Source: Achromobacter ruhlandii
GTDB taxonomy: Bacteria > Pseudomonadota > Gammaproteobacteria > Burkholderiales > Burkholderiaceae_B
Direction: 5' to 3'
NCBI RefSeq assembly: GCF_902859695.1
Contig: NZ_CADIJL010000030.1
Span: 1-64,000 of the forward strand
Length of the DNA stretch: 64,000 bases
Below the pieces are notes generated by a model. That model saw nothing but the letters and a program-made list of their open reading frames with translations. It ran no database searches and was not told where the DNA came from. Shown piece by piece: positions 4,448-45,911 of this stretch; the first letter of the stretch is position 1, and the number at the start of each line of letters is the position of its first letter. The translations under genes were made by a program, and so were the position numbers.

Positions 4448-5457
4448 GACAGACTCCCGGCCGCCTGCTCCAGCAGGCCCCAGGCCTTGTCGCCGTACTT
4501 TTCCTTCCAGCTGGCGTAGAAGCCGGCGCGGCGCAGCGCGTCGCGGATGGGGGCGGGGTCGGGGGTGTTGAAGGCCAGGCCCTGCTCGGCCAGCTTGGTC
4601 TGCAGCTGATTGTTGAGTGCCAGCACGTCGGCGCGCTCGGCCATGCCGGCGGCGTTGATGTGTTTGGCGACGACCTCGCGGATGTCGGCCGGCAGCTTTT
4701 CCCAGGCGCGGCGGTTGCCCAGGAACCAGAAGCCGTCCCACATGTGGTTGGTCATCGAGCAGTATTTCTGCACTTCGTACAGCTTGGCGGTCTGGATGAT
4801 GGCCAGCGGGTTTTCCTGCGCGTCCACCACGCGGGTCTGCAGGGCGGAATAGGTTTCGTTGAAGTTGATGCTGGCCGGCGACGAGCCCAGCGCCTTGAAC
4901 ATCGAGGTCCACAGCGGGCTGACCGGCACGCGGATCTTCAGGTCGCGGAAGTCGTCCGGGCCGCTGATGGCGCGCGAGCTGGTGGTGACCTGGCGAAAGC
5001 CGTTGTCCCAGATGCGGTCCATGACGAACAGGCCCTTGCCATTGATGTCGGCGCGGATGTGGGCGCCCAGGTCGCCGTCCATGGCCTTCCAGACCGAGGC
5101 GTAGTCGGGAAAGGCGAAGCCGACGCCGCTGATCGACGCGCTGGGCACCAGGGTCGACAGGATCAGCCCCGACAGGGTGAAAAACTCGACGGCGCCGGCG
5201 CGCAGCTGGCTCAGGGTGTCGGTGTCGGAGCCCAGCTGGCTGCTGGGGAACACCGCCAGTTCGAAGCGGCCGCCGGTGTCCTTGAGGATGTTCTGCGCGG
5301 CCTCGTTGGCGCGCAGGTTCATCGGGTGCGAGGGCGGCAGGTTGTTGGCGTACTTGTAACGGAACTGGGGCGCCGCCAGCGTGCGCTGGAACGGGGCCAG
5401 GGCGAGCAGCGCGCCGCCTCCCGCGGCGCGCATGAGGTTGCGTCGAGTCGTGTTCAT
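4444..5457 (-). CDS. TRAP transporter substrate-binding protein (DctP family)
   Basis: Periplasmic solute receptor of 337 residues. The N-terminus has twin arginines (TTRRNLMRAAGGGALLALA) and an Ala-rich cleavage region near residue 28, suggesting Tat or Sec export. The body follows the DctP family: YKYANNLPPSHPMN near the start, SQLGSDTDTLSQLRAG, and the arginine-containing helix DLKIRVP that normally binds the ligand carboxylate. It is the first gene of the dctP-dctQM operon and is divergent from the IclR regulator. The substrate is probably a carboxylate used by the CoA-dependent enzymes downstream of that regulator, which is an inference from context. Confidence 0.9.
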   Translation of the reverse strand: MNTTRRNLMRAAGGGALLALAPFQRTLAAPQFRYKYANNLPPSHPMNLRANEAAQNILKDTGGRFELAVFPSSQLGSDTDTLSQLRAGAVEFFTLSGLILSTLVPSASISGVGFAFPDYASVWKAMDGDLGAHIRADINGKGLFVMDRIWDNGFRQVTTSSRAISGPDDFRDLKIRVPVSPLWTSMFKALGSSPASINFNETYSALQTRVVDAQENPLAIIQTAKLYEVQKYCSMTNHMWDGFWFLGNRRAWEKLPADIREVVAKHINAAGMAERADVLALNNQLQTKLAEQGLAFNTPDPAPIRDALRRAGFYASWKEKYGDKAWGLLEQAAGSLS

Positions 5458-5544
5458 GCTGTCTCCTTGGTTATGAGATCCGGCCGCCGTCGAGGACGGC
5501 CGGATAAAGCGCCTTGCCAGGCCTGTTGCTTTATCTTTGCATGA

Positions 5545-5561
5545 GGTCCATTATATGGACC
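5545..5561. promoter_or_regulatory. Palindromic operator GGTCCA-N5-TGGACC, copy 1
   Basis: Perfect dyad AGGTCCA TTATA TGGACCT in the divergent region between dctP and the IclR gene. The same dyad occurs at 5654-5670, 40328-40344 and 40422-40438. The likely binder is the adjacent IclR protein, which is an inference. Confidence 0.7.
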
Positions 5562-5592
5562 TACTTACTACCCTTAAATTTATTTAATCACA

Positions 5593-5620
5593 TTGATTCA
5601 CTAGCGTAAATCAATAAAAC
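5593..5620 (+). promoter_or_regulatory. Possible promoter of the IclR-family gene
   Basis: TTGATT (5593-5598), a 16-base spacer, then TAAAAC (5615-5620). Transcription would start near 5627, between the two operators. With that start the ATG at 5630 would be almost leaderless, which raises doubt about the chosen translation start. Confidence 0.4.
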
Positions 5621-5629
5621 TGGTGCAGA

Positions 5630-6520
5630 ATGAAAAAACAAAATCAGGTTAATGGTCCACAAAATGGACCTGATGAAAACACAGGCGGAGACGTGACGGA
5701 GACCTCATCCCAGGTCGGTGGCGCCCAGGCGATATCCCGCGCCATGCTGGTGCTGCGCGCGGTGTCGCGCACCCGCGGCGAAGGCGCGGGCCTGCTGGCG
5801 TTGACGCGCGACACGGGCATGAGCAAGCCCACCGTGCACCGCATCCTGGCCGCCCTGGCCGCCGAAGGCATGGTCGAACAGGACCTGGCCAGCCGCCGCT
5901 ACTTTCTGGGCCCCGAATGCCACGTGCTGGGCAACATCGCCAGCGAGCGCTTCGGCATCAACCGCCTGGCCGCGCCGGTGGTGGCGCGACTGGCGCACGA
6001 ATGCGGCGATTCCGCCTTCTTTTCACTGCGCCGCGACGTGTTCGCGGTCTGCGTGCTGCGCGAGGACGGCGACTATCCGCTCAAGACCCACGTGCTGCTG
6101 CCGGGCGACCGGCATCCGCTGGGCATCGGCGCCGGCAGCCTGGCGATCCTGGCGGCGTTGCCCGACGACGAGGTCGACGCCTGCCTGCAGGCCAATGCGG
6201 CCCTGATCGAGCGGCGCTATCCGCATTACTCCGTGGCGCTGATCCGCACCCTGGTCGATGAGGTGCGCGAGCAGGGCTATGCCGTCAACCGCGGCCTGGT
6301 GGTGCCGGGCTCGTGGGGCATCGGCATGCCGCTGCGCGATGAGCAGGGCCACGTGCTGGGCGCCCTGAGCATCGCCGCGGTCGAATCGCGCATGGACGAG
6401 GAAAGACAGTTCCAGCTGGCCAAGCTGTTGTCACGCGAGGCCAAACGCCTGCTTGCGCAGGCCAACCCGGCAGGCCGCGAGGCGCGGGCGCGCCCGCAGG
6501 CCGCCAAGCCCAAGCCCTGA
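5630..6520 (+). CDS. IclR-family transcriptional regulator
   Basis: DNA-binding regulator of 296 residues with an N-terminal winged helix (about 35-100, including SRAMLVLRAVS and GMSKPTVHRILAALAAEGMVEQD) and a C-terminal effector-binding domain of GAF-like fold (about 110-280). It is divergent from the TRAP operon and upstream of thiolase, ligase and SDR genes, so it probably controls carboxylate uptake and breakdown. One GGTCCA dyad lies upstream of the gene and another at 5654-5670, inside the reading frame if ATG 5630 is used. There is no ribosome site before 5630; a GTG at about 5692, still ahead of the helix-turn-helix, would put both operators upstream. The start is therefore uncertain, the family is not. 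Confidence 0.88.
   Translation: MKKQNQVNGPQNGPDENTGGDVTETSSQVGGAQAISRAMLVLRAVSRTRGEGAGLLALTRDTGMSKPTVHRILAALAAEGMVEQDLASRRYFLGPECHVLGNIASERFGINRLAAPVVARLAHECGDSAFFSLRRDVFAVCVLREDGDYPLKTHVLLPGDRHPLGIGAGSLAILAALPDDEVDACLQANAALIERRYPHYSVALIRTLVDEVREQGYAVNRGLVVPGSWGIGMPLRDEQGHVLGALSIAAVESRMDEERQFQLAKLLSREAKRLLAQANPAGREARARPQAAKPKP
5654..5670. promoter_or_regulatory. Palindromic operator GGTCCA-N5-TGGACC, copy 2
   Basis: GGTCCA CAAAA TGGACC, 109 bp centre to centre from copy 1. It overlaps the first codons of the IclR gene if ATG 5630 is the start. This fits autoregulation by a repressor bound at two sites. Confidence 0.65.
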
Positions 6521-6564
6521 TCCGCCGTGCCGGCGGGGCGGGGCTGCCAACAGAGGAGACAGCA

Positions 6565-7737
6565 ATGAGCAAGCGTGCCGTCATCGTGGGGTGGTCGCAC
6601 ACCCCGTTCGGCAAACTCGACGACCCCGACACCGAAAGCCTGATGGCGCGGGTATCCGGCGCCGCGCTGGAGCATGCGGGCATCAGCCCGGAGGCGGTGG
6701 ACGGCATCTATGCCGGCGTCATGAACAGCGGTTTCCAGAAACAGGATTTCCAGGCCGCGCTGGTGGCGCTGGCCGACCCGGCGCTGGCGTATGTGCCGGC
6801 GACGCGGCTGGAGAATGCCTGCGCCACCGGCTCGGCCGCGCTGTACGCGGCCATGGATTTCATCGAGGCCGGACGCGGCCGCGTGGCGCTGGTGGTGGGG
6901 GCCGAGAAGATGACCGCGCGTTCCACCGAGGACACCGGCGACATCCTGCTCAATGCCAGCTACCGCAAGGAAGAGGCCAACCTGCCGGGCGGCTTTGCCG
7001 GCGTGTTCAGCCGCATCGCCACCGCCTATTTCGAGCGCCATGGCGACCACGGCGAGGCGCTGGCCCGCATCGCGGCCAAGAACCACGCCAATGCGCTGGA
7101 CAACCCTTACGCGCAGATCCGCAAGGACCTGGGCTTCGCGTTCTGCAATACCGTCTCCGAGAAAAACCCTTATGTGTCGGCGCCGTTGCGCCGCACCGAT
7201 TGCTCGCCCATTTCCGACGGCGCGGCGGCGCTGGTGCTGGCCGACGCGGAAACCGCGGCGGGCCTGCGCCGCGCCATCGGCTTTCGCGCCCGGCGCCACG
7301 TCAATGACTTCCTGCCGCTGAGCCGGCGCGATCCGATCGCGTTCGAGGGCGCGGCGCGCGCCTGGCGCGAGGCGCTGGCCGATGCCGGCGCGACCCTGGA
7401 CGACCTGAGCCTGGTGGAGACGCATGACTGCTTCACCATCGCCGAACTGATCGAGTACGAGGCCATGGGCCTGGCGCCGCGCGGCCACGGCGTGCGGGCG
7501 CTGCGGGAGGGCTGGGTGCAGAAGGGCGGACGCCTGCCGGTCAACCCGTCGGGCGGACTCAAGGCCAAGGGCCATCCGGTGGGCGCCACCGGGGTGTCGC
7601 TGCACGTCATGGCGTGTCTGCAACTGGCCGGCGAGGCCGGCGCCATGCAGGTGCCGGACGCGACGCTGGCCGGCGTCTTCAACATGGGCGGCGCGGCCGT
7701 GGCCAATTACGTCAGCATCCTGGAGCGCGTCAAATGA
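6565..7737 (+). CDS. Thiolase-family acetyl-CoA acyltransferase (SCP2/lipid-transfer type)
   Basis: Enzyme of 390 residues expected to catalyse thiolytic cleavage or condensation of a 3-oxoacyl-CoA in the cytoplasm. The nucleophile region ENACATGSAA places the catalytic cysteine at about residue 86, and GGLKAKGHPVGATG carries the active-site histidine near 337. There is a good ribosome site (GAGGAGAC) before the ATG. It is followed by an acyl-CoA synthetase with an ATGA stop/start overlap, so the two are co-translated. It resembles the non-canonical thiolases found in catabolic clusters for branched or unusual acids. The substrate is unknown. Confidence 0.88.
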   Translation: MSKRAVIVGWSHTPFGKLDDPDTESLMARVSGAALEHAGISPEAVDGIYAGVMNSGFQKQDFQAALVALADPALAYVPATRLENACATGSAALYAAMDFIEAGRGRVALVVGAEKMTARSTEDTGDILLNASYRKEEANLPGGFAGVFSRIATAYFERHGDHGEALARIAAKNHANALDNPYAQIRKDLGFAFCNTVSEKNPYVSAPLRRTDCSPISDGAAALVLADAETAAGLRRAIGFRARRHVNDFLPLSRRDPIAFEGAARAWREALADAGATLDDLSLVETHDCFTIAELIEYEAMGLAPRGHGVRALREGWVQKGGRLPVNPSGGLKAKGHPVGATGVSLHVMACLQLAGEAGAMQVPDATLAGVFNMGGAAVANYVSILERVK

Positions 7738-9365
7738 GCGGCCCGCTGGAGCAGGCCCTGGTGCCGCCGGGCGGGGTGGCGCCGGTGTCGCGCCGGGCCA
7801 TGAACCTGGCGCATTTCCTGGTGCAGGCGGCGCGCCGCCACCCCACGCGCGCAGCGCTGGTCTGCGGCGAGGCCCGTCTGAACTGGCGCGAGCTGGACAC
7901 GCGCACGGCCGCCCTGGCGCGGGCGCTGGCCGAGCGCGGCGTGAGCAAGGGCGACCGGGTGCTGGTGCACGCGCGCAACAGCTTCGCGTTCGCCGAAACC
8001 CTGTTCGCCGTGCTGCGGCTGGGCGCGGTCTGGGTGCCGACCAATTGCCGCATCTCGCCGGACGAGGCGGTCTATCTGGCGCGGGCGGCCGGGATCAAGG
8101 CCTTCCTGTGCGAAGGCCAGTCTCCCGGGCACGCGGCGGCCGTGGCGCAGGCCATGCCCGACCTGGCCTTGCTGGCGCGGCTGGGCCCCGGCGAGTTCGG
8201 CGAGGCCGACACCGCTTCCCTGATCGCGGCGCATCTGGATGACGCGCCGGCGGCCTGCGCCGACGTGGACTATGACGATCCCTGCTGGTTCTTCTTTACT
8301 TCCGGCACCACCGGGCATCCGAAGGCGGCGGTGCTGACGCATGGCCAGATGGCGTTCGTGCTGACCAACCACCTGTGCGACCTGATGCCGGGCACCACCG
8401 AGCACGACGTCAGCCTGGTGGTGGCGCCGTTGTCGCATGGCGCGGGCATCCATTTCCTGACCCAGGTGGCGCGCGCCGCCGCCACCGTGCTGCCCGAGGG
8501 CGAGCGCTTCGACCCGGAAGAGGCCTGGCGCCTGGTGCAGGCGCACCGGGTGACCAACATGTTCACCGTGCCGACCATCGTCAAGCTGCTGGTCGAGCAC
8601 CCGGCGGTGGACGCCTTTGACCACTCCAGCCTGCGCTACGTGATCTACGCCGGCGCGCCCATGTACCGCGAAGACCAGAAGCGCGCGCTGGCCAAGCTGG
8701 GCCGGGTGCTGGTGCAGTACTTCGGGCTGGGCGAGGTCACGGGCAACATCACTGTGCTGCCGCCGCAACAGCACCATGACGGCGACGGCCCCGAGGCGCG
8801 CGTGGGCACCTGCGGCTACGAGCGCATCGGCATGCAGGTCAGCATCCAGGACGAGGCCGGCAATCCGCTGCCGGCGGGCCGGACGGGCGAGATCTGCGTC
8901 TGCGGGCCGGCGGTGTTCGCCGGCTATTACGACAACCCGGGCGCCAATGCCAAGGCCTTCCGCAACGGCTGGTTCCGCACAGGCGACCTGGGCTACCTGG
9001 ACGACGCGGGCTACCTCTACATCACCGGCCGCGAATCCGATATGTACATCTCGGGCGGCTCCAATATCTATCCGCGCGAGGTCGAGGAAAAGGTGCTGGC
9101 GCATCCGGCGATCGCGGAGGCGGCCGTGCTGGGGGTACCGGACCCGGTGTGGGGCGAGGTGGGGGTGATGGTGTGCGTGCTGCGACCCGGCGAGACACTG
9201 GAAGAGGAGGCCCTGCTGGCCTGGCTCGGATCGCGCATGGCGCGCTACAAGCTGCCGCGCCAGGTGTTCTTCTGGGATGCGCTGCCGCGGTCGGGCTACG
9301 GCAAGATCACCAAGAAGCTGGTGCGCGAGGCCCTGCGCGAGCGGGGCTGCCTGGCGCCCGCCTAG
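7734..9365 (+). CDS. Acyl-CoA synthetase (AMP-binding, ANL superfamily)
   Basis: Activates a carboxylic acid to its CoA thioester through an acyl-adenylate (543 residues). The P-loop-like motif FTSGTTGHPKAAVLTHG is at about 187-203, the adenylate motif YFGLGEVTGN near 330, the hinge RTGDLGYLDDAGYLYITGR near 420 and the catalytic lysine in GYGKITKK near 521. The ATG overlaps the thiolase stop (ATGA). With the thiolase and the SDR it forms an acid activation and beta-oxidation-like unit, probably fed by the TRAP transporter across the IclR gene. Confidence 0.9.
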   Translation: MSGPLEQALVPPGGVAPVSRRAMNLAHFLVQAARRHPTRAALVCGEARLNWRELDTRTAALARALAERGVSKGDRVLVHARNSFAFAETLFAVLRLGAVWVPTNCRISPDEAVYLARAAGIKAFLCEGQSPGHAAAVAQAMPDLALLARLGPGEFGEADTASLIAAHLDDAPAACADVDYDDPCWFFFTSGTTGHPKAAVLTHGQMAFVLTNHLCDLMPGTTEHDVSLVVAPLSHGAGIHFLTQVARAAATVLPEGERFDPEEAWRLVQAHRVTNMFTVPTIVKLLVEHPAVDAFDHSSLRYVIYAGAPMYREDQKRALAKLGRVLVQYFGLGEVTGNITVLPPQQHHDGDGPEARVGTCGYERIGMQVSIQDEAGNPLPAGRTGEICVCGPAVFAGYYDNPGANAKAFRNGWFRTGDLGYLDDAGYLYITGRESDMYISGGSNIYPREVEEKVLAHPAIAEAAVLGVPDPVWGEVGVMVCVLRPGETLEEEALLAWLGSRMARYKLPRQVFFWDALPRSGYGKITKKLVREALRERGCLAPA

Positions 9366-9449
9366 GAAACGGGGCCGCCGCGCGGCGGCCGCCCAAGAGG
9401 GTGCGGACATCGCGAACACATCGCGAGCACACAATGAGGAGACCGAATC

Positions 9450-10214
9450 ATGGATGGAGCGCAGGAAGCGGTGCTGGTCACGGGGGGCGCGTCGGGCATT
9501 GGCCTGGCCGTCGCGCGTGGCCTGCTGGGCGCGGGACGCCGGGTGCTGGTGGCCGACGTGTCGCAGGAACGGCTGGACGAGGTGCGAGGCCTGGCGCCGG
9601 CGGATCGGTTGGGCTGCGTGCGGATGGATGTGTCCGACGAGGCGCAGGTGAGCGAGGCGATCGCGAGGCTGGAGTCCGACTTCGGGCCGATCGCCGGGCT
9701 GGTCAATTCGGCGGGTATCGGCCGCGACGTGCCGTTCCTGGAGACGGACACGGCGTTGCTGCGGCGGATCCTGGAAGTTAACCTGGTGGGGTCGTTCGTG
9801 GTGGCGCGCGAGGCGGCCCGGCGCATGCGCGATCGCGGCCGCGGGTCGATCGTGAACATCGCGTCCGTGTCGGGCATCCGCGGCAACGCGGGCCGGGCGG
9901 CGTACGGCGCTTCCAAGGGAGGCGTGGTGACGCTGACCCGGGTGATGGCGGTGGAGCTGGCCGCCTACGGCATCCGCGTGAACGCGGTTGCGCCCGGGCC
10001 GATCGAGACGCCGCTGGTGAGCCAGATGCACACGGATGAGGCGCGCGCGGCCTGGCGCCGGGTGGTGCCGCAGCATCGCTACGCGGCGCCGGAGGAACTG
10101 AACGGCACCATCGGCTGGCTGCTGGACGAGTCGCAGTCCAGCTACGTGACCGGGCAGGTGATTTGTGTGGACGGCGGCTTCACCGCGGCGGGCATGCTGC
10201 CGGCGGTGCATTGA
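9450..10214 (+). CDS. Short-chain dehydrogenase/reductase
   Basis: NAD(P)-dependent oxidoreductase of 254 residues. The cofactor motif TGGASGIG is at residues 11-18, NSAG near 88, NIASVSG contains the active serine, and YGASK has Tyr152 and Lys156. The C-terminus has the usual VTGQVICVDGGF. A ribosome site (GAGGAGA) precedes the ATG. It probably oxidises a hydroxyacyl-CoA or alcohol in the same pathway as the neighbouring thiolase and ligase. A perfect 18-bp GC palindrome (9373-9390) lies in the gap before it. Confidence 0.9.
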   Translation: MDGAQEAVLVTGGASGIGLAVARGLLGAGRRVLVADVSQERLDEVRGLAPADRLGCVRMDVSDEAQVSEAIARLESDFGPIAGLVNSAGIGRDVPFLETDTALLRRILEVNLVGSFVVAREAARRMRDRGRGSIVNIASVSGIRGNAGRAAYGASKGGVVTLTRVMAVELAAYGIRVNAVAPGPIETPLVSQMHTDEARAAWRRVVPQHRYAAPEELNGTIGWLLDESQSSYVTGQVICVDGGFTAAGMLPAVH

Positions 10215-10272
10215 CGCCCGCGTTTTCAGCTTTCATTCCCATCTTGCGCCACAAGCGCACGGAGTGCACATC

Positions 10273-10836
10273 ATGCGAACCACCACCGTGGATCGTTCGT
10301 TGCGGGGATCACCGGTATTGCCCCGCCCCAGGACGCTGATACACCCGGGAGCCTTCAACCCGGTCCGGATACACAGCCGCTGCGCGCGGCGCGGCCGCCA
10401 TGTCCGGCTGGCGCTGCAGCCCGGCGCCAGTCTGTTCGAGGCGCTGGTCAATGGCCTGGCGCCGCTGGGCGTGGAGAACGCCTCGATGACGCTGCTGAGC
10501 GGCGAATTCAGCCATCTCGACTACTGCACCGCGCCGCCGGACCCGGCGCATCTGCGGGTGGTGGCGTACACCGCGCCGATCGCGGCGGGCGCGGCCACGC
10601 TGATCTTCGGCAACGCCACGCTGGGCAAGGGCGACAACGGCGAGCCGCTGGTGCACTGTCACGCGGCGTTCTGCGATCAGGGCGGGGCGTTGCTGGGCGG
10701 GCACCTGATTCCGCAGACATCGATCGTGGGCGCGGGGCCGGTGACGGTACTGGTGACGGCGCTGGAAGGCTTCGAACTGCGCGCCACTTATGACGCCGAA
10801 ACCAATTTGCGGCTACTGCAGCCGCGGGAGATCTGA
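10273..10836 (+). CDS. PPC/DUF296-domain protein, first of a tandem pair
   Basis: Cytoplasmic protein of 187 residues. The segment from about 55 to 180 (ASLFEALVNGLAPLGVENASM..., GEPLVHCHAAFCDQGGALLGGHLI) matches the PPC (plant and prokaryote conserved, DUF296) fold, which forms trimers and is found in AT-hook plant proteins and in small bacterial proteins of unclear role. The HCHAAF and GGHL histidines are those thought to bind metal in the family. The basic N-terminal 45 residues are atypical. The gene lies 58 bases after the SDR and 2 bases before a second PPC gene. Confidence 0.65.
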   Translation: MRTTTVDRSLRGSPVLPRPRTLIHPGAFNPVRIHSRCARRGRHVRLALQPGASLFEALVNGLAPLGVENASMTLLSGEFSHLDYCTAPPDPAHLRVVAYTAPIAAGAATLIFGNATLGKGDNGEPLVHCHAAFCDQGGALLGGHLIPQTSIVGAGPVTVLVTALEGFELRATYDAETNLRLLQPREI

Positions 10837-10838
10837 CG

Positions 10839-11228
10839 ATGATGCCGGCCGAGGTCGAAAGCGGAAGCATGGGGCGGGTGGCGTATGCGCGCATCGGGCC
10901 CAACGAGGATCTGGTGCAGGGGGTCGAGAAGCTGTGCCTGGCGGAGGGGTTTCGCAACGCCTTCGTGCGCGGCGCGCTTGGGAGCCTGGTGGATGCCTGC
11001 CTGTATGCGCGGGGCGGGGAGGTGCGGCAGCTGGAGGGGCCGGCGGTGGAGATCGTGAGCCTGGCGGGAGAGGTGCGCGCGCAGGCGGACGGGTCGGTGG
11101 TGGCCTCGTTGTCGGGGGTGGTGGCGGACCCGGCGGGGCGGGTGCACGGCGGGGTGTTCGTCCCGGGGGCGAACCCTGTCTGCATGACGTTCGAGGTGAC
11201 GTTGGAGGAGTGGCTGCCGGACGGGTGA
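10839..11228 (+). CDS. PPC/DUF296-domain protein, second of a tandem pair
   Basis: A 129-residue single-domain PPC protein: EDLVQGVEKLCLAEGFRNAFVRGALGSL, then GVVADPAGRVHGGVFVPGANPVCMTFEVTLEEW. It starts 2 bases after the preceding PPC gene, so the two are co-translated and may form a mixed oligomer. Two adjacent ATG codons (10839 and 10842) are possible starts. In bacteria such proteins are often placed beside CoA or carboxylate catabolism genes, as here. No reaction can be assigned. Confidence 0.7.
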   Translation: MMPAEVESGSMGRVAYARIGPNEDLVQGVEKLCLAEGFRNAFVRGALGSLVDACLYARGGEVRQLEGPAVEIVSLAGEVRAQADGSVVASLSGVVADPAGRVHGGVFVPGANPVCMTFEVTLEEWLPDG

Positions 11229-39411: not shown

Positions 39412-39533
39412 CGGTGTTCCATCCGGGTGACGGCAGAGTGCCTACCGTTGTATCGCAGTTGCGGCGTTCACGCACGCAGGATGATGTTCCGATGACGCCG
39501 GTGATACGCCCAGGCCGGCGATGGCGCGGGGCG

Positions 39534-40298
39534 TCAGAACCAGTACTTCACCGCATAGATAATGGTCATGGCGGCGCCCGTGACGATCACGAACGCCCGG
39601 ATGGCCGAAGCCGGCAGGACGCGTATCAAGTGGCCGCCCAGGTAGCCGCCCGCCAGCGCGCCGGCCAGCATGCATAGCGTGGCCGGCCAATGCACCGAAC
39701 CCTGCACGATGAAGATGACGATTGCCGCGGCGGTGACAAACGTGGCCAGCAGGTTTTTCAGCGATTTGATGGCGCGCAGGTTTCCGGGATCCGTGATGGA
39801 AATCACCGCGGTCAGGATCACGCCCAGCCCGGCGCCGAAAAAACCGCCATACACGGAGGCCAGCGCGATCGGCAGCACGCCGCGCGCGGGGCCGTCCTGC
39901 GCCTGGCCGCCGCGTCGGCGCGCGCTCCAGGCCTGCACCTGGGGCGCAAAGGCAAACAGCAGGGTGGCAAACGCGATCAGGGCCGGCACGGGCAGGATGA
40001 AATAGGCGGGGGGAATGGCAAGCAGAATGAATGCGCCCAGCGCGCCGCCCGCGGTGGTGGCGATGGATAACAGCCAGAAGCGCCGATCGGGAGCGGGCAG
40101 GTTTTCACGATCCGCCAGCGCCGCGAGGATATGGCCGGGGGATATGGCTACCGCGCTGGAGGCATTGGCGATGACGGGCGGCAGGCCCGCCGCCACCATC
40201 GCGGGAAAAGTAATCAATGTGGCGCCGCCCGCCAGCGCATTGATGACGCCGCCCAGCGTGCCCGCGCCGGCCAGCAGTGCCGCGATGCTCCACTCCAT
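39534..40298 (-). CDS. TauE/SafE (TSUP) family permease
   Basis: A 254-residue membrane protein with about eight helices and two homologous halves: TLGGVINALAGGATLITFPAMVAAGLPPVIANASSAVAISPGH and YGGFFGAGLGVILTAV. The family exports sulfite, sulfoacetate or related small organic anions. A ribosome site (AGAGGTG) precedes the ATG. It is divergent from the biosynthetic cluster and has a GGTCCA dyad 30 bases upstream, so it is probably co-regulated with the cluster and could export its product or a by-product. That link is an inference. Confidence 0.85.
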   Translation of the reverse strand: MEWSIAALLAGAGTLGGVINALAGGATLITFPAMVAAGLPPVIANASSAVAISPGHILAALADRENLPAPDRRFWLLSIATTAGGALGAFILLAIPPAYFILPVPALIAFATLLFAFAPQVQAWSARRRGGQAQDGPARGVLPIALASVYGGFFGAGLGVILTAVISITDPGNLRAIKSLKNLLATFVTAAAIVIFIVQGSVHWPATLCMLAGALAGGYLGGHLIRVLPASAIRAFVIVTGAAMTIIYAVKYWF

Positions 40299-40327
40299 GC
40301 CCACACCTCTTCGGTAAACTGCATTAT

Positions 40328-40344
40328 GGTCCATATATTGGACC
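40328..40344. promoter_or_regulatory. Palindromic operator GGTCCA-N5-TGGACC, copy 3
   Basis: TGGTCCA TATAT TGGACCA, perfect dyad, 30 bases before the TSUP start and 25 bases before the -35 box of the cluster promoter. Same consensus as the two copies around the IclR gene. Confidence 0.75.
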
Positions 40345-40368
40345 AATATATGGGGTGAAAATTTATTA

Positions 40369-40396
40369 TTGCCTATTTTCCTCGCAGGTATAGAAT
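40369..40396 (+). promoter_or_regulatory. Promoter of the biosynthetic cluster
   Basis: TTGCCT (40369-40374), 16-base spacer, TAGAAT (40391-40396); start expected near 40403. It lies between operator copies 3 and 4. Confidence 0.55.
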
Positions 40397-40421
40397 GCTC
40401 GAAAATTAAAGAATAAATAAT

Positions 40422-40438
40422 GGTCCAATATATGGACC
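40422..40438. promoter_or_regulatory. Palindromic operator GGTCCA-N5-TGGACC, copy 4
   Basis: TGGTCCA ATATA TGGACCA, perfect dyad, about 20 bases downstream of the predicted transcription start and 94 bp centre to centre from copy 3, close to nine helical turns. Confidence 0.75.
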
Positions 40439-40493
40439 ATATAAAAACTCCGGCGACGCCTTTTAGCCGCCCCGCAAGATCGCTGTCAACTCC

Positions 40494-40576
40494 CAGGACG
40501 GCGCATGCGGCCGGATCCGCATCGGCTGTGCGTGCCCCGTCCTGATCGCTGGTTTCCAACTCCGTCCCCGGAGTTG
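40494..40576 (+). other. Structured leader of the biosynthetic cluster
   Basis: The leader can form an outer stem CAGGACGG/CCGTCCTG (40494-40501 with 40537-40544) enclosing ATGCGG/CCGCAT, then an 8-bp hairpin CAACTCCG/CGGAGTTG (40557-40576). CAACTCC also occurs at 40487-40493, so GGAGTTG could pair with either copy. The second hairpin lacks a T-run. No known riboswitch class is recognised. Confidence 0.35.
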
Positions 40577-40635
40577 TTGCGTGTTCACCTGTCTGGCCCT
40601 GCGGGCCATCACCGTTGAATCAGGAGGGAATCTCG

Positions 40636-41625
40636 ATGGATGTGAGCTTCATGGCGTTTTCCCGGCTGGCATTCGGGCATTGGGAGGGGCAACCCTTGTA
40701 TGCCCTGGCCGACCTTGGGATTGCCCAGCGTTTGGCCGAACCCCGTACCTGCGCCGAGCTGGCTCGGGAAATCGGTTGCGAATCCGAGCCGCTGGAACGT
40801 TTGCTGGACTGCGCGGTCGCGCAAAAGCTGCTGGCATGCGACGGCGAGCGCTACGCCAATACCGATCTCAGTGCGCGTTTCCTCACCGAGGGCAGCCCCG
40901 AATCCCTGTTGTGCTGGCTGCGCGTCATGGCGCGCTGGAAACAGCCCTGGACGCAGCTGGCCGAGGCGGTGCGGCGAGGCGAGGCGGTGGACAACCAATC
41001 CAAGTGGCTGGGCGAGGATCCCCAGTTCATGCGCGACTTCATCCTGGGCATGCACCAGTTCGCGTCCCGTTCCGGCCCCGCGTTCGCGCAGGCGCTGAAA
41101 GACGTGCCCATTCGCCACCTGGTGGATGTGGGCGGGGGCGCGGGTACGTATTCGATTGCCTTGTGCGCGGCGCGGCCCGAGATAACCGCGCAGATTCTCG
41201 ATCTGGCGCCGGTTGTCGAGATCACGCGCGAAACCGTGCGAGCGGCCGGCCTGGCGGACCGCGTCAGCGCCAGTGTGGCCGATTATCGACAGGACGGTTT
41301 TGGCGAGGCGGCTGACGCACTGCTTTTTTCAAACGTGCTGCATCAGGAAAGCGCGCAGGTTTGCCGATCGATGCTGGATCGCGCCAGGCAGGCCTTGAGG
41401 CCGGGCGGCGTCTTGCTGGTACAGGGTTACTTCCTTGCCGAGGACCGGCGCGCGCCGTTGTTCACCACCTTGCACAACCTGTCCGCGCTGGCGCTGTGGG
41501 ACGGCGGGCGCAGTTGGACGGTGGGCGACATGCAGGCGCAGATCGCGGGTGCGGGGTTTGAGCGCCAGGCCGTGCTGCGCCAGGAGAGCAGCGGGTTCTG
41601 CCTGCTGTCGGCCGTCAAGGTCTGA
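40636..41625 (+). CDS. SAM-dependent methyltransferase, O-methyltransferase type
   Basis: First gene of the cluster; 329 residues. An N-terminal winged-helix dimerisation domain (about 15-95: LGIAQRLAEPRTCAELAREIGCESEPLERLLD) precedes the SAM-binding domain, with motif I VDVGGGAGTYSIAL near 163 and RARQALRPGGVLLVQGYF later. This is the acetylserotonin/polyketide O-methyltransferase architecture of secondary metabolism. AGGAGGG stands 6 bases before ATG 40636, so the TTG at 40615 is rejected. It may methylate a carboxyl, hydroxyl or N-hydroxyl of the cluster's product. Confidence 0.88.
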   Translation: MDVSFMAFSRLAFGHWEGQPLYALADLGIAQRLAEPRTCAELAREIGCESEPLERLLDCAVAQKLLACDGERYANTDLSARFLTEGSPESLLCWLRVMARWKQPWTQLAEAVRRGEAVDNQSKWLGEDPQFMRDFILGMHQFASRSGPAFAQALKDVPIRHLVDVGGGAGTYSIALCAARPEITAQILDLAPVVEITRETVRAAGLADRVSASVADYRQDGFGEAADALLFSNVLHQESAQVCRSMLDRARQALRPGGVLLVQGYFLAEDRRAPLFTTLHNLSALALWDGGRSWTVGDMQAQIAGAGFERQAVLRQESSGFCLLSAVKV

Positions 41626-41656
41626 CGCGTTATCCACTTATTGAACCGGAGTCCCT

Positions 41657-41911
41657 ATGTCCACACAGACCGTCACCGATACTGATACCGAAGCCGAAGT
41701 GATCGCCTGGCTGAAGGAAAACCGCAATGCGCAGGTGGAAGGCATCAAAGAGAAGAACCTGATCGAAGAGCGCATCCTGGACAGCATGCAGTTCCTGGAT
41801 TTCATCATGTTCCTAGGTGAACTGGTGGGGCGTGATGTCTCGACCGCCATCACCGTCGACGACCTGCGCACGGTGGATGCCATCGTCGGATTCGTCCAGG
41901 CACAACGCTAG
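41657..41911 (+). CDS. Stand-alone acyl/aminoacyl carrier protein
   Basis: An 84-residue four-helix carrier protein. Ser43 in ILDSMQFLDFIMFLGELVGRD is the expected phosphopantetheine site, and IEERILDS is the usual run-in. It is acidic at the N-terminus. It sits between the methyltransferase and the diiron oxygenase and is the only carrier protein here, so it is probably the substrate of both the amino acid:carrier protein ligase and the phosphopantetheinyl transferase in the same cluster. Confidence 0.88.
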   Translation: MSTQTVTDTDTEAEVIAWLKENRNAQVEGIKEKNLIEERILDSMQFLDFIMFLGELVGRDVSTAITVDDLRTVDAIVGFVQAQR

Positions 41912-41930
41912 GCCGGGCGAGGAACGCACC

Positions 41931-42824
41931 ATGACATTCGACTATTCAAGAATCGGCCGTCTGATGACGCTATCCAAAGGGCGCTCGCATGATCCCTACG
42001 AGCGTTTCGAGTGGCCCGCCCGTATCCCGGATGACCAGCCCTGGTGCAGCAATGACTTGCTCACCACCTATGGAACGCCCTTGCAGGAGCAATTGGACGC
42101 CGCCCAGCAGATACGGCTCAGCAAGTGGGAGGCGGTCAATTTCTTCAGCCTGAACGTGCATGGCATCAAAGGGGTGCTGAGCTTCGTCAGCCGCTGCATC
42201 TATGAAGAGCGCTATGCCGATGTCTCCGAATACCTGCATGTCTTCATGGGCGAAGAGAATTTCCATATGTGGTATTTCGCCAAGGCCTGCCTGGATTATG
42301 CGGGAAAGATATATCCATCCATTCAGTTGCAGGGCGATGCGCAGGCCGCCACGCCAGAATTGGACGACTTGTACATGTTCGCCAGCACGCTGATCTTTGA
42401 GGAGTTCGTCGACTACTACAACCATAAGGTCGGCACCACGGACGGCATCACCGAGATCCTCAAGCAGATCAACTACCAGCACCATGTCGATGAGTCCCGC
42501 CACGTGTCCTTCGGCCGGGAAATGGTGCCGCGCCTGTACCAGCTGGCCTTGGAGCGCGGCGGCGATCCCGACGCGACGCGGGCGGAGGTGGCGCGCACGG
42601 TAACGAATATGTTCCGGTACTTCATCAGCCTGATGTACAACCCCGCCGTCTATGACGACGCCAAGGTCTACGAGCCGCTGGGGTTTCGCAATGGCAACGC
42701 CATGCGCAACGCGCTGCGCTCGCATCCGGCGCGCAAGGCTATCCACGAGCAATGGTTCAAGCGCAGCGCCGCCTTCTTCACCAAACAGGGGCTGGTGACG
42801 GACTTGAATCTGGCTGCGCTATAG
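41931..42824 (+). CDS. Ferritin-like diiron oxygenase, AurF-like
   Basis: An all-helical protein of 297 residues with a set of likely iron ligands in AurF order: Glu67, Glu109-x2-His112 (GEENFH), Glu157 (FEEFVDYY), and His184-x3-Glu188-x2-His191 (HHVDESRH). The extra His184 separates AurF-type N-oxygenases from acyl-ACP desaturases, which otherwise share the two ExxH motifs. AurF and CmlI oxidise amines to nitro or hydroxylamine groups. Here the substrate may be an aminoacyl group on the adjacent carrier protein. Ligand assignment is by eye; C-hydroxylation or desaturation remains possible. Confidence 0.75.
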   Translation: MTFDYSRIGRLMTLSKGRSHDPYERFEWPARIPDDQPWCSNDLLTTYGTPLQEQLDAAQQIRLSKWEAVNFFSLNVHGIKGVLSFVSRCIYEERYADVSEYLHVFMGEENFHMWYFAKACLDYAGKIYPSIQLQGDAQAATPELDDLYMFASTLIFEEFVDYYNHKVGTTDGITEILKQINYQHHVDESRHVSFGREMVPRLYQLALERGGDPDATRAEVARTVTNMFRYFISLMYNPAVYDDAKVYEPLGFRNGNAMRNALRSHPARKAIHEQWFKRSAAFFTKQGLVTDLNLAAL

Positions 42825-42837
42825 GCGGAGGTTCACC

Positions 42838-43794
42838 ATGGCGCGGATTGCCAGCAGTCCCGAGGTGGAGGCGTTTTTTGGCGCGTGCTTGCCTGTCCTG
42901 CAGGCCGGCATGGGCGGCGTGGCGCAGCCGGAACTGGCGGCCGCCGTGTGCGAGGCGGGCGCGTTCGGCATGATAGGGCTGTATCGCCACACGCTTGACG
43001 AGATCGGCGCGTTGCTTGCGCGGACGGCCCAACTGACCCGCGCGCGCTTCGGCGTGAATCTGGTGCCCTTCGTCCTGGACGCGGACGCGTTGCTGGAGCG
43101 GCTCGCCTTTCTGGCGGACCGTCCGGAGCGGCCGGTCGTGACCTTCTTCGGCCTGCCGGATGCGTCCGTGCTGCGGGCCTTGCCGGCCGGCATGGAATAT
43201 GGCGTGCAAGGCGGGACCTGGGACGAGCTGGAAGCGGGGTTCGATGCCGGCGCGCGTTTTGGCGTGTTGCAGACGACGGAGGCGGGCGGCCATCACCTGG
43301 GCTCGACGCCGCGCGGACAGGCGCTGGACCAGGCCGGCCGCCATGGCGTCGACAGGCGCATGGTGTTCCTAAGCGGCGGCATCAGCAACGCGGCGGAGTT
43401 GCGCCAGGTGGTGCAGGCCGGATTTTCCGGCGCGCTGTGCGGCACCGTATTCGCGGCCACCCGGGAGTCCGCCGCGCACGAGCGCTACAAGCAGGCGATC
43501 GTGAACGCCACGCCCGGCGATACCGTGGTCACCGACCGCTTCAGCATCGGCTGGCATACCCATCGCCACCGGGTTATCCGCAATGCCAGCTGCGAGCAGT
43601 CGCTGCCGGCAAGTGTCATCGGTTCCGCGCATTACTTTGGCAAGCGTTATCCCATCCTGCGTTACAGCGTTGCGGTACCCACCGTGCACACCGAGGGTTT
43701 GATCGAGGAAATGGCGTTGTATTGCGGCACGTCCTGCAAGGACACGCATTCCATCCGAACCGTCCGCCAGGTGCTGGCTGACCTGACGGCGTAG
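42838..43794 (+). CDS. FMN oxidoreductase, nitronate monooxygenase/FabK family
   Basis: TIM-barrel flavoprotein of 318 residues. It keeps the family marks LQAGMGGVAQPELAAAVCEAGAFGMIG, TTEAGGHH with the active histidine region, and the phosphate-binding GGISNAAELRQVVQAGFSGALCGTVF. Family members oxidise nitronates or reduce enoyl thioesters (FabK). Next to an AurF-like N-oxygenase, a role on a nitro or N-oxidised intermediate is attractive but unproved. GGAGG lies 6 bases before the ATG; it starts 13 bases after the oxygenase gene. Confidence 0.83.
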   Translation: MARIASSPEVEAFFGACLPVLQAGMGGVAQPELAAAVCEAGAFGMIGLYRHTLDEIGALLARTAQLTRARFGVNLVPFVLDADALLERLAFLADRPERPVVTFFGLPDASVLRALPAGMEYGVQGGTWDELEAGFDAGARFGVLQTTEAGGHHLGSTPRGQALDQAGRHGVDRRMVFLSGGISNAAELRQVVQAGFSGALCGTVFAATRESAAHERYKQAIVNATPGDTVVTDRFSIGWHTHRHRVIRNASCEQSLPASVIGSAHYFGKRYPILRYSVAVPTVHTEGLIEEMALYCGTSCKDTHSIRTVRQVLADLTA

Positions 43795-43852
43795 GGCCGG
43801 GTCGTGCATGCATTCACTCAAGTGCTTTCAGGGATTTTCAGGAGATTGAATC

Positions 43853-44638
43853 GTGATTATCGAAAAGCAATGGCACCAGGTAAAGAACGTGCTGCAGGCC
43901 AAACTGGACGACATATTCTCGATTGCGCCCGACGCCACCACCGAGTTCGACAGCTTGCTGGCCCATGAAGAGATCAATGCGCTGGGCTACGTGCGCAATT
44001 TCCCGCACCTGACCTGCGTCATGTGCTCGATAGAACAGGGGGAGTTGCTGGGGTTCGCGCGCGGCCAGCGCAAGCTGGACCAGGATTTCAAGGCGCTTCG
44101 CGCCGACGTGGCGCTGTTGCCGGCCACTTGCTACAAGGTCTACCTGGGGCTGCAAGGGCAGCACCTGGAAGACGCGCGGGTGGAGTCCTGCATCGCGCGC
44201 TGCTTCCGGCACGAGGACAAGGCGCTGGATCGTTACCGCGCTTTCAACTTCACCATGAAGGAATACGTGTACCTGGGCACCGCGCAGGGCGCGCAGGCGC
44301 ACCTGGAAGCGGGGTACGACCGCCTGTTCTCCCTGTTCGCTCAGCTGGGAATCAGCGCGGGTTGTGAAGAAGCCAACGATCCCTTCTTTGATTCAGGCAG
44401 CGCCGTGGCGCGCCTGTCGGCGCTGACGCCCACCAAGCGTGAGCTGGTGTTCGACGGCCATGCCGTGTCTTCGCTGAACTATCACCGCAACTACTTCGGT
44501 GAAAAGTTCGATATCCGCCTGGCCGACAGCTTCGTGCATACCAGTTGTGTCGCGTTTGGATTGGAGCGTTGGATCTCCATGTTCAAGGATCGTTTCGGCA
44601 ATGCGGCGGATGCGCTCGCCGCGCTGGAGCGCGCCTAG
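43853..44638 (+). CDS. Amino acid:carrier protein ligase (class II aaRS-like)
   Basis: A 261-residue homologue of the catalytic core of class II (atypical seryl-type) tRNA synthetases without a tRNA-binding arm. Visible: LLPATCYKVYLG, motif 2 RCFRHEDKALDRYRAFNFTMKEYVYLG, and motif 3 TSCVAFGLERW. Cys93, Glu137 and Cys232 are placed as the zinc ligands of the Bradyrhizobium amino acid:[carrier protein] ligases, which adenylate glycine or alanine and transfer it to phosphopantetheine. The GTG start has AGGAGA 8 bases upstream. With the carrier protein and PPTase present it should load a small amino acid. Specificity cannot be read from sequence. Confidence 0.85.
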   Translation: MIIEKQWHQVKNVLQAKLDDIFSIAPDATTEFDSLLAHEEINALGYVRNFPHLTCVMCSIEQGELLGFARGQRKLDQDFKALRADVALLPATCYKVYLGLQGQHLEDARVESCIARCFRHEDKALDRYRAFNFTMKEYVYLGTAQGAQAHLEAGYDRLFSLFAQLGISAGCEEANDPFFDSGSAVARLSALTPTKRELVFDGHAVSSLNYHRNYFGEKFDIRLADSFVHTSCVAFGLERWISMFKDRFGNAADALAALERA

Positions 44639-45022
44639 ATGGATGGCCCGACGCTACAGGCGCAGGCGCTGTTCGAGACGGGGCAGCAGTTCACGAAGAC
44701 CTGCGTGGTCGATGCCGCCGCGAGCGCATTGAACTATGGGGGCGATCTGGACGTGCTGGCCACCCCGGTGATTGTCTATTGGATCGAGTCTTATGCGACC
44801 GAGTGCATCCGGCTGGCAGGCGACGGGCGCTGCGGGTCGGTCGGGCATGCGATCAGCGTGCGGCACGTGGCGCCCGCGCATCCGGGCAGCGCGGTGCGGC
44901 TGACGATCACGGTGGCGGCGATGTTCGGCAATTCCCTGCGGTTCAGTGCCCGCGCCGTGGCGGGCGAGGCCGACACCCTGATCGCGACCGGCACGCATGA
45001 CCGCACCCTCGTCGACCTTTGA
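44639..45022 (+). CDS. Hotdog thioesterase, FlK-like
   Basis: A 127-residue hotdog-fold protein. Thr42, Glu50 and His76 (ATPVIVYWIE and SVRHVAP) coincide with the catalytic triad of the fluoroacetyl-CoA thioesterase FlK, and Gly69 with the FlK substrate-pocket glycine. FlK relatives hydrolyse short alpha-substituted acetyl thioesters. In this cluster it would release a small acid from the carrier protein or CoA. The ATG directly follows the ligase stop (TAGATG), so the genes are coupled. Confidence 0.83.
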   Translation: MDGPTLQAQALFETGQQFTKTCVVDAAASALNYGGDLDVLATPVIVYWIESYATECIRLAGDGRCGSVGHAISVRHVAPAHPGSAVRLTITVAAMFGNSLRFSARAVAGEADTLIATGTHDRTLVDL

Positions 45023-45641
45023 CGTCACAGTAGTGCTGGGCCCTCCCGACCCGGTGCTGGCCGGGCGGACCGCGCGAGCCCCCACCCTGCGCACCCGGTT
45101 GGGCAAGCCGTACCTTCCCGGCCTTGCCGGTTTCGGCGTGAGCCACAGTGCCGGCGTGCAGGCGCGGCTATATGCCAATCGCAAGTACGTGGGCATTGAT
45201 ATCGAGCATCTGGACCGGCCCGACCTGGCCGCCCGCCAGCGCCGCCTGGCGGCCTGGCTGGCGCGGCGCGACCTCGTCGCCGTGGACTTCCTGGCCGGCT
45301 GGGTGGCCCGCGAGGCTTGCGCAAAAAGCGTGGGGCTGGGGCTGCTGCACGCGCTGCCGCGCTTGTCCATCGCCTGGGTCCGGCCTTGCGGCCAGGACGG
45401 GGCGCAAGAAATCGGCCTGGTATTGAGCCGCTGGCGATTCGTCGCGCGGTGTGAGCGGGTCGGCAGGGTGCTGCTATGCGTGTGTTATCGGCAGGACTAT
45501 GGCCAGCCCGCCCTATCCTTGCTGCGGCCCGGCCTTGGCGCGGCCGGCGCCGTGGCCGCCAGCCCCGTGGCCGCCAGCCTTTCAGTCGCCAGCCTTTCCG
45601 TCTGGGGTACGGGCCGGCTCTTGGGGGCCGGCCGGAAATAG
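44997..45641 (+). CDS. 4'-phosphopantetheinyl transferase (Sfp type)
   Basis: A 214-residue enzyme that would prime the cluster's carrier protein with phosphopantetheine from CoA. Motifs: FGVSHSAG (about 46-53), VGIDIE with the metal ligands Asp68 and Glu70, and WVAREACAKSVGLG with Glu106 and Lys110. The arginine in place of the usual first lysine of WxxKEAxxK is conservative. It overlaps the thioesterase gene by 26 bases. After about residue 165 the sequence is low-complexity (Ala/Ser/Val/Leu repeats), possibly decayed or extended by repeat expansion. Confidence 0.85.
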   Translation: MTAPSSTFDVTVVLGPPDPVLAGRTARAPTLRTRLGKPYLPGLAGFGVSHSAGVQARLYANRKYVGIDIEHLDRPDLAARQRRLAAWLARRDLVAVDFLAGWVAREACAKSVGLGLLHALPRLSIAWVRPCGQDGAQEIGLVLSRWRFVARCERVGRVLLCVCYRQDYGQPALSLLRPGLGAAGAVAASPVAASLSVASLSVWGTGRLLGAGRK

Positions 45642-45653
45642 TCAGGCCAAACG

Positions 45654-45787
45654 ACCAGGCAAAACAACCCGGCAAAAACAGTGTCCAGACAAAAACAGCG
45701 CCCAAACAAAAACAGCGCCCAAACAAAAACAGCGCCCAAACAAAAACAGCGCCCAAACAAAAACAGCGCCCAAACAAAAACAGCGCC
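45654..45787. repeat. 17-bp tandem repeat array
   Basis: Unit CAAACAAAAACAGCGCC, with CAGCG recurring exactly every 17 bases at 45696, 45713, 45730, 45747, 45764 and 45781, and degenerate copies before (45679 and about 45660). On the minus strand each unit is the 3' arm plus T-tract of the tRNA-Ala terminator. It lies between the PPTase stop and the tRNA gene. Confidence 0.9.
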
Positions 45788-45801
45788 TTTTAAGGCGCTG
45801 T
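45771..45801 (-). terminator. Terminator of the tRNA-Ala gene
   Basis: Minus-strand hairpin ACAGCGCCTT/AAGGCGCTGT (45780-45801, 10-bp perfect stem, tiny loop) followed by TTTTTGTTTG. It is 35 bases beyond the tRNA 3' end. Confidence 0.8.
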
Positions 45802-45835
45802 CCTGGACTTGCCCAGATCACTCTGGAGCTTGAAG

Positions 45836-45911
<76 letters not shown>

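Follow-up and report, generated by a model that had tools for sequence, protein, structure and literature searches.

A compact amino acid:carrier protein ligase operon in Achromobacter ruhlandii, probably encoding a self-contained carrier-bound glycine nitronate pathway

The 64,000-nucleotide stretch of the Achromobacter ruhlandii genome analysed here (contig NZ_CADIJL010000030.1, positions 1 to 64,000; hereafter the window) contains, at 40636-45641, a compact operon of seven open reading frames (ORFs), all on the + strand, built around an amino acid:carrier protein ligase. The presence of seven same-strand genes of these families had been proposed in an earlier note made from the sequence alone, and is borne out by the ORF coordinates and the family matches. 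The same holds for the absence of modules of non-ribosomal peptide synthetases (NRPS) or polyketide synthases (PKS): the ORF list and Pfam searches revealed none among the operon ORFs, so the NRPS loading of enteromycin-type clusters has no counterpart there. Here, we describe this operon and its relatives, and propose that it probably encodes a self-contained form of the pathway that turns carrier-bound glycine into a nitronate. The seven genes are as follows.

40636..41625, + strand: S-adenosylmethionine (SAM) methyltransferase of the Methyltransf_2 type (PF00891/PF08100), a candidate nitronate O-methyltransferase
41657..41911, + strand: stand-alone carrier protein, with Ser43 as the candidate phosphopantetheine site (weak NCBIfam matches, alignment)
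41931..42824, + strand: candidate AurF/CmlI-type ferritin-like diiron N-oxygenase (PF11583; fold model)
42838..43794, + strand: nitronate monooxygenase (NMO)/FabK-like flavoprotein with an EAGGH motif (PF03060, 6.3e-25)
43853..44638, + strand: class II aminoacyl-transfer RNA (tRNA) synthetase (aaRS)-like amino acid:carrier protein ligase with a GTG start, residues C93, E137 and C232, and Ala234
44639..45022, + strand: FlK-like hot-dog thioesterase (PF22636, 69.9 bits against a cut-off of 27)
44997..45641, + strand: Sfp-like phosphopantetheinyl transferase (PPTase), GIDIE ... WVAREACAK (PF01648, 22.9 bits against a cut-off of 25)

The genes are tightly packed, with successive intergenic gaps of 31, 19, 13, 58 and 0 bp and a 26-bp overlap of the last pair. 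Four families score above the curated Pfam cut-offs (Methyltransf_2 3.1e-24, AurF 2.4e-27, NMO 6.3e-25, FlK 2.2e-19). The PPTase stays just below that of PF01648 (ACPS); its counterpart in Agrobacterium vitis passes with 31.6 bits, and the gene is kept in all five aligned species. The carrier matched no Pfam carrier-protein family and matches the NCBIfam acyl-carrier models weakly (best 20.1 bits, cut-off 65); its candidate phosphopantetheine serine is invariant in 9/9 aligned carriers, within DSM or DSL in eight of them, and a PPTase-like gene lies nearby.

Genome-neighbourhood co-occurrence, which the earlier note had suggested as a check, supports the gene set. A query with the AurF-like protein found 5 of 43 Achromobacter genomes, the window's included, and the other four (A. 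dolens, A. insuavis, A. pulmonis and the genome G228) carry all seven genes together as well, which argues that the set is not a matter of chance. For five of the seven genes (all but carrier and PPTase), comparison of the window with A. insuavis, A. pulmonis and G228 gave ratios of nonsynonymous to synonymous substitution rates (dN/dS) of 0.03-0.30 over 15 comparisons. Each of the five Achromobacter species has the seven as genuine, intact genes. Their G+C content is low for the window, at 62-65% in the 40-46 kb blocks against 66-73% in the other blocks, save one at 64%. As a minor observation, a repetitive tail (45530-45641) lengthens the C-terminus of the PPTase in the window and in A. dolens, and is absent from the three other aligned species.

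Beyond the genus, three of these genes travel together. Relatives are sparse: the ligase query found 5 of 250 genomes in a family-level sample (one of them only distantly) and 7 of 369 in a class-level sample, and an AurF profile found 2 of 398 in a phylum-level sample at 1e-30, each count including the window's own genome. A scan with the ligase query yielded 27 loci, in 17 of which an AurF gene lies near the ligase; 16 of these 17, all except Salinarimonas, also gave a carrier match. The AurF-linked loci come from Achromobacter, Salinarimonas, Ramlibacter, Streptomyces, Frankia, and metagenome-assembled genomes (MAGs) of an Elusimicrobia bacterium and a Candidatus Obscuribacterales bacterium. 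Distances among the AurF proteins correlate with those among the ligases (r 0.95 over 24 loci, with 0/2000 permutations as high; r 0.77 over 13 non-redundant loci, 0/5000). AurF, carrier and ligase form a recurrent triad. Its surroundings vary: seven Streptomyces loci have a methyltransferase match 7-8 kb downstream, in the one examined (L022) of the same Pfam family as that of the window, and the Ramlibacter locus combines carrier, MaoC, LCM methyltransferase, ligase and AurF.

Two of these loci deserve a brief description of their own. In Streptomyces L022 (6673-18812), an acyl-AMP ligase gene is followed by AurF, carrier and ligase, by genes that look NRPS-like and EamA-like by eye, and by an O-methyltransferase; the triad stands between the acyl-AMP ligase and the frame read by eye as NRPS, and a 2027-amino-acid ORF listed there was discarded as a frame artefact of that NRPS frame. 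G228 carries, in addition to the operon, a second triad (L007, 7840-13235) with an enoyl-CoA hydratase, a hydrolase, a transporter-like gene (by eye) and a methyltransferase, and with a ligase that has Gly at the presumed specificity position discussed below.

A precedent exists for chemistry of this kind. In PMC9967187, a route in which glycine on a carrier is converted by a diiron oxygenase to a nitronate, followed by an O-methyltransferase, is attributed to He and Ryan 2021, the title of whose paper, as cited there, names denitrification as the other branch; a preprint on the diiron oxygenase Dob3 (PMC12154687) cites the same authors for nitronate among the products of the FDO family. The suggestion of the earlier note that no described pathway has this set therefore fails for the core chemistry, which is already known. 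The loading enzyme and the combination of parts look like a variant, although the He and Ryan cassettes may already include such a type. He and Ryan (Nat Chem 2021) reportedly also described gene cassettes performing oxidative denitrification, as well as the enteromycin carboxamide pathway. The likeness between the window operon and this pathway would lie in a carrier-bound amino acid, an AurF-type diiron N-oxygenase, a SAM methyltransferase and a putative denitrification branch; the operon differs in holding both candidate branch enzymes together and in including an FlK-like thioesterase, a PPTase and a TauE/SafE permease. In the akazaoxime cluster, an NRPS takes up the glycine, which is then elongated by way of NRPS and PKS (PMC9967187), in contrast to the aaRS-like ligase and free carrier of the window. 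Among the matches listed in a search of the open-licence PMC literature, judged by title or the start of the abstract, none described a set of aaRS-like ligase, AurF and NMO.

Three other systems were considered as models and set aside: the Dnf/Dirammox hydroxylamine cluster of Alcaligenes (PMC9478400, PMC11160463), where the partners named are a reductase and an amidotransferase, not a carrier and a ligase; lipothrenin-type N-oxygenation (PMC10616846), which combines a diiron enzyme with an acyl carrier protein (ACP) and has no aaRS-like ligase in its gene table; and diazo formation by Dob3 (PMC13061610), which requires hydrazone-forming genes that are not among the seven.

From the families, conservation, co-occurrence, fold and boundary reported here, we infer the substrate, the oxidation level, the order of steps, the product and the export as follows. 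The PPTase would turn the small carrier into its holo form, and the aaRS-like ligase, supported in its family assignment, would adenylate an amino acid, most likely glycine, and load it onto that carrier, ligase and carrier standing in for an NRPS loading module. The AurF/CmlI-type enzyme, to judge by its fold, its ligands and the precedent, would oxidise the carrier-bound amine by up to six electrons to nitroacetyl-carrier, that is, the nitronate, which may then be O-methylated by the methyltransferase or denitrified oxidatively by the NMO to glyoxylyl-carrier and nitrite; the NMO may also act as a safety valve against free nitronate. An FlK-like thioesterase, hydrolysing an alpha-substituted acetyl thioester, would suit such an electron-poor acetyl thioester, and a TauE/SafE permease encoded beside the operon would export the small anion. 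The likely species are hence a glycine-derived nitronate, its O-methyl ester, or glyoxylate and nitrite. The earlier note had envisaged priming, loading, oxidation and release of a carrier-bound amino acid, which agrees with our analysis as far as family membership goes, and a small oxidised, perhaps methylated amino acid derivative, which fits in outline and can now be narrowed to these more specific candidates.

The ligase shows the features of a broad amino acid:[carrier protein] ligase: a class II core, Cys/Glu/Cys, the Arg and Glu of motif 2, and an adjoining carrier. We take the Cys/Glu/Cys residues (C93, E137 and C232) to be a Zn site. The solved Bradyrhizobium ligases match it at 3.2e-20 (phmmer); it stays below the cut-offs of Pfam tRNA-synt_2b (17.8 bits, cut-off 29.3) and of the NCBIfam equivalog for amino acid--[acyl-carrier-protein] ligases, NF005479 (118.9 against 357 bits). 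With Bradyrhizobium Bll0957 (PDB 3mey/4h2w) it shares the class II aaRS core, the short length (261 amino acids), Cys/Glu/Cys, a CVAF motif and a separate carrier nearby, and it differs from the Bradyrhizobium ligases in being remote, below the equivalog and linked to a diiron N-oxygenase. The neighbours of the ligases reported by Mocibob et al. are genes for an ACP, a Rossmann-fold monooxygenase/dehydrogenase, a glycosidase and liposaccharide functions (PMC2922099); the class I aaRS-like systems treated there were rejected as a model, being of a different aaRS class from the window ligase. Two residues past the last Cys of the presumed Zn site lies Ala234, which is aligned with an Ala in Bll0957 as well. 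Bll0957 is reportedly specific for glycine, and the residue equivalent to Ala234 presumably controls that specificity; a search of the open-licence PMC literature on ligase specificity returned nothing on glycine use by Bll0957 or on the role of the residue. In favour of glycine, Ala occupies that position in 22 of 23 AurF-linked ligases (18/19 and 4/4 in two sets, the window and G228 operon ligases left out) against 5 of 18 ligases without a seen AurF (4/17 plus the plasmid locus L106 described below). Of these 18, six (L040-L045) are flanked by no more than about 1.5 kb, and phylogenetic independence does not hold among the loci.

The diiron oxygenase retains a full set of candidate metal ligands, assigned by spacing (E67, E109, H112, E157, H184, E188 and H191) and invariant in 11/11 relatives. 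Their E-x2-H and H-x3-E-x2-H spacing agrees with that given for Dob3, and a His aligns where, according to the same description, FDO N-oxygenases have an extra His (PMC12154687). A predicted model (pLDDT 91.9) found six solved matches at E <= 0.001, all of them CmlI or AurF chains, the best at 2.5e-05 and with TM-scores of 0.57-0.67. The protein thus resembles the AurF/CmlI arylamine N-oxygenases in fold and in the spacing of its diiron ligands; it differs from them in sequence (13-16% identity over the six best structural alignments) and in being clustered with a carrier and a ligase, because of which an acyl-carrier substrate is to be expected.

For the flavoprotein, PF03060 scores 88.7 bits against a cut-off of 28, and the EAGGH motif is present in 4/4 aligned proteins. 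The thioesterase aligns its H76 and G69 with FlK, the fluoroacetyl-CoA thioesterase of the same PF22636 hot-dog family, and matches T42 and E50 by number; we take T42/E50/H76 to be the FlK catalytic triad. It has Asp at the position of F36, presumably the fluorine gate of FlK, and its substrate is expected on a carrier.

Further cassettes were found on plasmids, where the AurF query gave 10 matches among 72,556 records, six of which were examined as regions (a second A. vitis record and the three weakest matches were left out). Closest to the operon is that of A. vitis F2/5, whose consecutive genes encode carrier, AurF, NMO, ligase, FlK-like thioesterase, PPTase and, as the last, a TauE/SafE permease homologous to that of the window (phmmer 7.5e-44); the order is collinear with the window operon, and no methyltransferase was matched. 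Tistrella mobilis has a rearranged version, in which AurF, carrier, ligase, NMO and methyltransferase genes follow one another and FlK-like and MFS genes lie divergently nearby; PF22636 is thus common to the window, A. vitis and Tistrella cassettes, and Streptomyces NBC_01431 has AurF, carrier, ligase, NMO, a hydrolase, a small gene, PPTase and permease. No NMO match was obtained in Azospirillum (NRPS/PKS, LCM methyltransferase), Nostoc (adenylation-domain protein) and Streptomyces NBC_00335 (type II PKS-like); the Azospirillum FDO is 48.6% identical to that of the window and lies in a cluster with NRPS, PKS and methyltransferase. A query with the window NMO matched 77 plasmid records, the four best of which belong to the other three cassettes with an NMO (two A. 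vitis records and one each from Tistrella and Streptomyces NBC_01431), and the methyltransferase query matched 185, the best in the Tistrella cassette (52.4%) and the next among the matches listed at 32.3%. Because their nearest plasmid relatives lie in cassettes, NMO and methyltransferase look like cassette-specific subfamilies, the methyltransferase being optional. As the collinear A. vitis cassette does without a methyltransferase, what the cassettes have in common is more likely denitrification, to which O-methylation would have been added.

Three plasmid regions are also noted in passing. In a Streptomyces clavuligerus plasmid (L106, 7836-10020), ligase, carrier and PPTase occur with no AurF seen, near a condensation-domain protein and a phytanoyl-CoA dioxygenase; in a Streptomyces plasmid (L107, 1878-11699), a triad lies within a type II PKS-like cluster; and another A. 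vitis plasmid (NZ_AP023274.1, 407045-407769) has a 53% ligase match in two pieces and no AurF match, perhaps a decayed cassette or an effect of the end of the record.

Several observations weigh against the glycine nitronate pathway, and rival explanations were considered. Glycine as the most likely substrate is read from a single-residue marker of presumed meaning. Five ligases without a seen AurF also have Ala there, and L007, the sole AurF-linked exception, with Gly in place of Ala, shows that the module is not tied to that residue. The same module might load another amino acid, such as alanine or serine, as the paralogous G228 ligase would suggest, or its oxidation might halt at a hydroxylamine or oxime; the methyltransferase would then produce an O-methyl oxime or an N-methoxy compound, and the NMO would have an auxiliary part. 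We regard either outcome as unlikely: the Ala shared by the window ligase and 22 of the 23 AurF-linked ones argues against a non-glycine substrate, inasmuch as its presumed meaning holds, and an NMO-family enzyme suits a nitronate better than an oxime. Partial oxidation does have parallels, in that a diiron oxygenase acting on carrier-bound glycine has been proposed to give an aldoxime (PMC9967187), and deletion of litN, which encodes an AurF relative, abolishes N-hydroxylated lipothrenins (PMC10616846).

The flavoprotein is the second point of doubt. Nitronate monooxygenase and FabK structures match it about equally, so reduction by this enzyme is possible, and FabK is its best NCBIfam match; an NMO match was obtained in only 3 of the 17 AurF-linked loci, all of them Achromobacter; and a methyltransferase and an NMO acting on one intermediate would be an odd pair within one operon if they are alternatives. 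Furthermore, the diiron enzyme needs electrons, and Pfam reveals no evident donor, nor any other reductase family, in the cassette. The flavoprotein might act as a FabK-like reductase or might supply the diiron enzyme with electrons, and the product might be a reduced N-oxidised compound or the O-methyl nitronate only. This appears rather improbable to us, because the FabK match, at 64.8 bits, is far under the equivalog cut-off of 453.1, the published branch point is denitrification, as far as the cited title tells (PMC9967187), and 14 of the 17 AurF-linked loci gave no NMO match, which argues against the flavoprotein being a general electron donor. The other parts of the glycine nitronate pathway are not free of difficulties either: the methyltransferases of the Azospirillum and Ramlibacter loci are of another family, LCM, so that nitronate methylation may fall to either family, and the Tistrella cassette gave no PPTase or TauE permease match.

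Finally, the sequence-profile search against solved structures ranks an R2-like oxidase first (0.00038), with solved AurF at E 0.28-0.29 only, and phmmer with a single AurF-like sequence found nothing in the PDB at 0.001. The window enzyme is therefore a remote member of the AurF family, whose AurF/CmlI assignment is carried by the fold model. That it oxidises carbon instead of nitrogen and yields a hydroxylated amino acid, as the profile ranking and the C-H as well as N-H oxygenation described for the FDO family (PMC12154687) might suggest, is very improbable, given that among solved structures its fold comes closest to the N-oxygenases CmlI and AurF, that a His occupies the position where FDO N-oxygenases carry their extra one, and that glycine has no beta carbon.

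The unit seems to extend beyond the seven genes. Around the operon, and 35 kb away, lie the following features.

39534..40298, - strand: TauE/SafE (TSUP) permease, divergent, the probable cassette exporter (PF01925, 2.3e-34)
40328..40344: palindrome GGTCCA-N5-TGGACC, site 1 before the operon (sequence match)
40422..40438: palindrome GGTCCA-N5-TGGACC, site 2 before the operon (sequence match)
45836..45911, - strand: tRNA-Ala(CGC), whose 3′ end is the cassette boundary
5630..6520, + strand: IclR-family regulator, the candidate operon regulator; the palindrome pair recurs here (5545-5561 and 5654-5670)

The permease gene lies 334-350 bp before the methyltransferase gene in 5/5 operon species, with dN/dS of 0.06-0.11 between the window and the three species compared above. 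The outer flanks differ, the unit following a PCC-domain gene in G228 and A. pulmonis and lying between a DUF1275 gene and exonuclease III in the other three, where it adjoins the 3′ end of tRNA-Ala; six Achromobacter PCC-gene loci from operon-free genomes revealed no permease over about 10 kb beyond the PCC gene (6/6). The unit thus seems to comprise eight genes, the permease included, and the earlier note, right about the seven, had missed this apparent eighth as well as the palindromes and the tRNA-Ala boundary. The alignment of another genome, G222, leaps from window position 39463 to 45836, the 3′ end of tRNA-Ala, over 89 bp of its own. G222 thus shows an empty site, in one genome; in the four other genomes queried, DUF1275 found no match beside which such a site could be sought. 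Looked for in the window with up to 3 mismatches, a direct repeat of the tRNA-Ala 3′ end was found only as the tRNA itself. For the substrate of the permease, the literature offered nothing usable among the matches listed; it may export nitrite or nitroacetate.

The palindrome occurs at four places in the 6.86-Mb genome, two before the operon and two at the divergent promoter of the IclR and TRAP transporter genes, at about 5.5 kb of the window. The number itself is not high: the reversed pattern, taken as a control, is present 13 times, and an exact match turns up somewhere, once or more, in 34 of 43 Achromobacter genomes; it is the clustering that stands out. Exact copies before the operon number two in the window and in A. 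dolens, one each in A. insuavis and G228, and none in A. pulmonis, and the operon-side sites are visible in the alignment of the five operon species. Pairs 109-110 bp apart, as at the IclR locus, occur in at least 12 of the 43 genomes. The shared palindrome suggests that the IclR gene, 35 kb away, may control the operon, and since pairs spaced like that of the IclR locus are found in at least 12 of 43 genomes and the operon-side sites in the five operon species, an IclR regulon probably existed first and was later joined by the operon. As the palindrome at 5654-5670 falls inside the IclR ORF as listed, the true start of that gene may lie later.

It is possible, though doubtful, that the whole constitutes an exportable device turning glycine into nitrite or O-methyl nitronate, in which glycine would be burned on a private carrier, the permease would secrete nitrite or nitronate, and IclR would also govern the TRAP transporter and thiolase/acyl-CoA ligase locus. 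If so, the device would amount to an organic, secreted form of heterotrophic nitrification or to nitronate signalling, and would have spread on plasmids and as an island at a tRNA site. Should the NMO branch be active, some bacteria would make, and may export, nitrite from glycine, a route that, to our knowledge, is not counted in nitrification models. The operon would further give the orphan aaRS-like carrier-protein ligases a definite chemical role, nitronate formation from carrier-bound glycine without NRPS, and with the triad spread across Streptomyces, Frankia, two MAGs and several Proteobacteria with varied tailoring genes, one enzymatic test would help to annotate many clusters.

Some minor features of the region may be added. 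The IclR, TRAP transporter, thiolase, acyl-CoA ligase, SDR and PCC-domain locus with its palindrome pair (2555-11228) is found in Achromobacter genomes with and without the operon. The PCC gene and the permease, neighbours in G228 and A. pulmonis, are about 28 kb apart in the window (11290-39411). A TRAP transporter adjoins the Tistrella cassette too (L103, 14190-16840), as at the window IclR locus, which may be a coincidence. Between the PPTase gene and tRNA-Ala lies a 17-bp tandem repeat of 6.8 copies (45673-45787).

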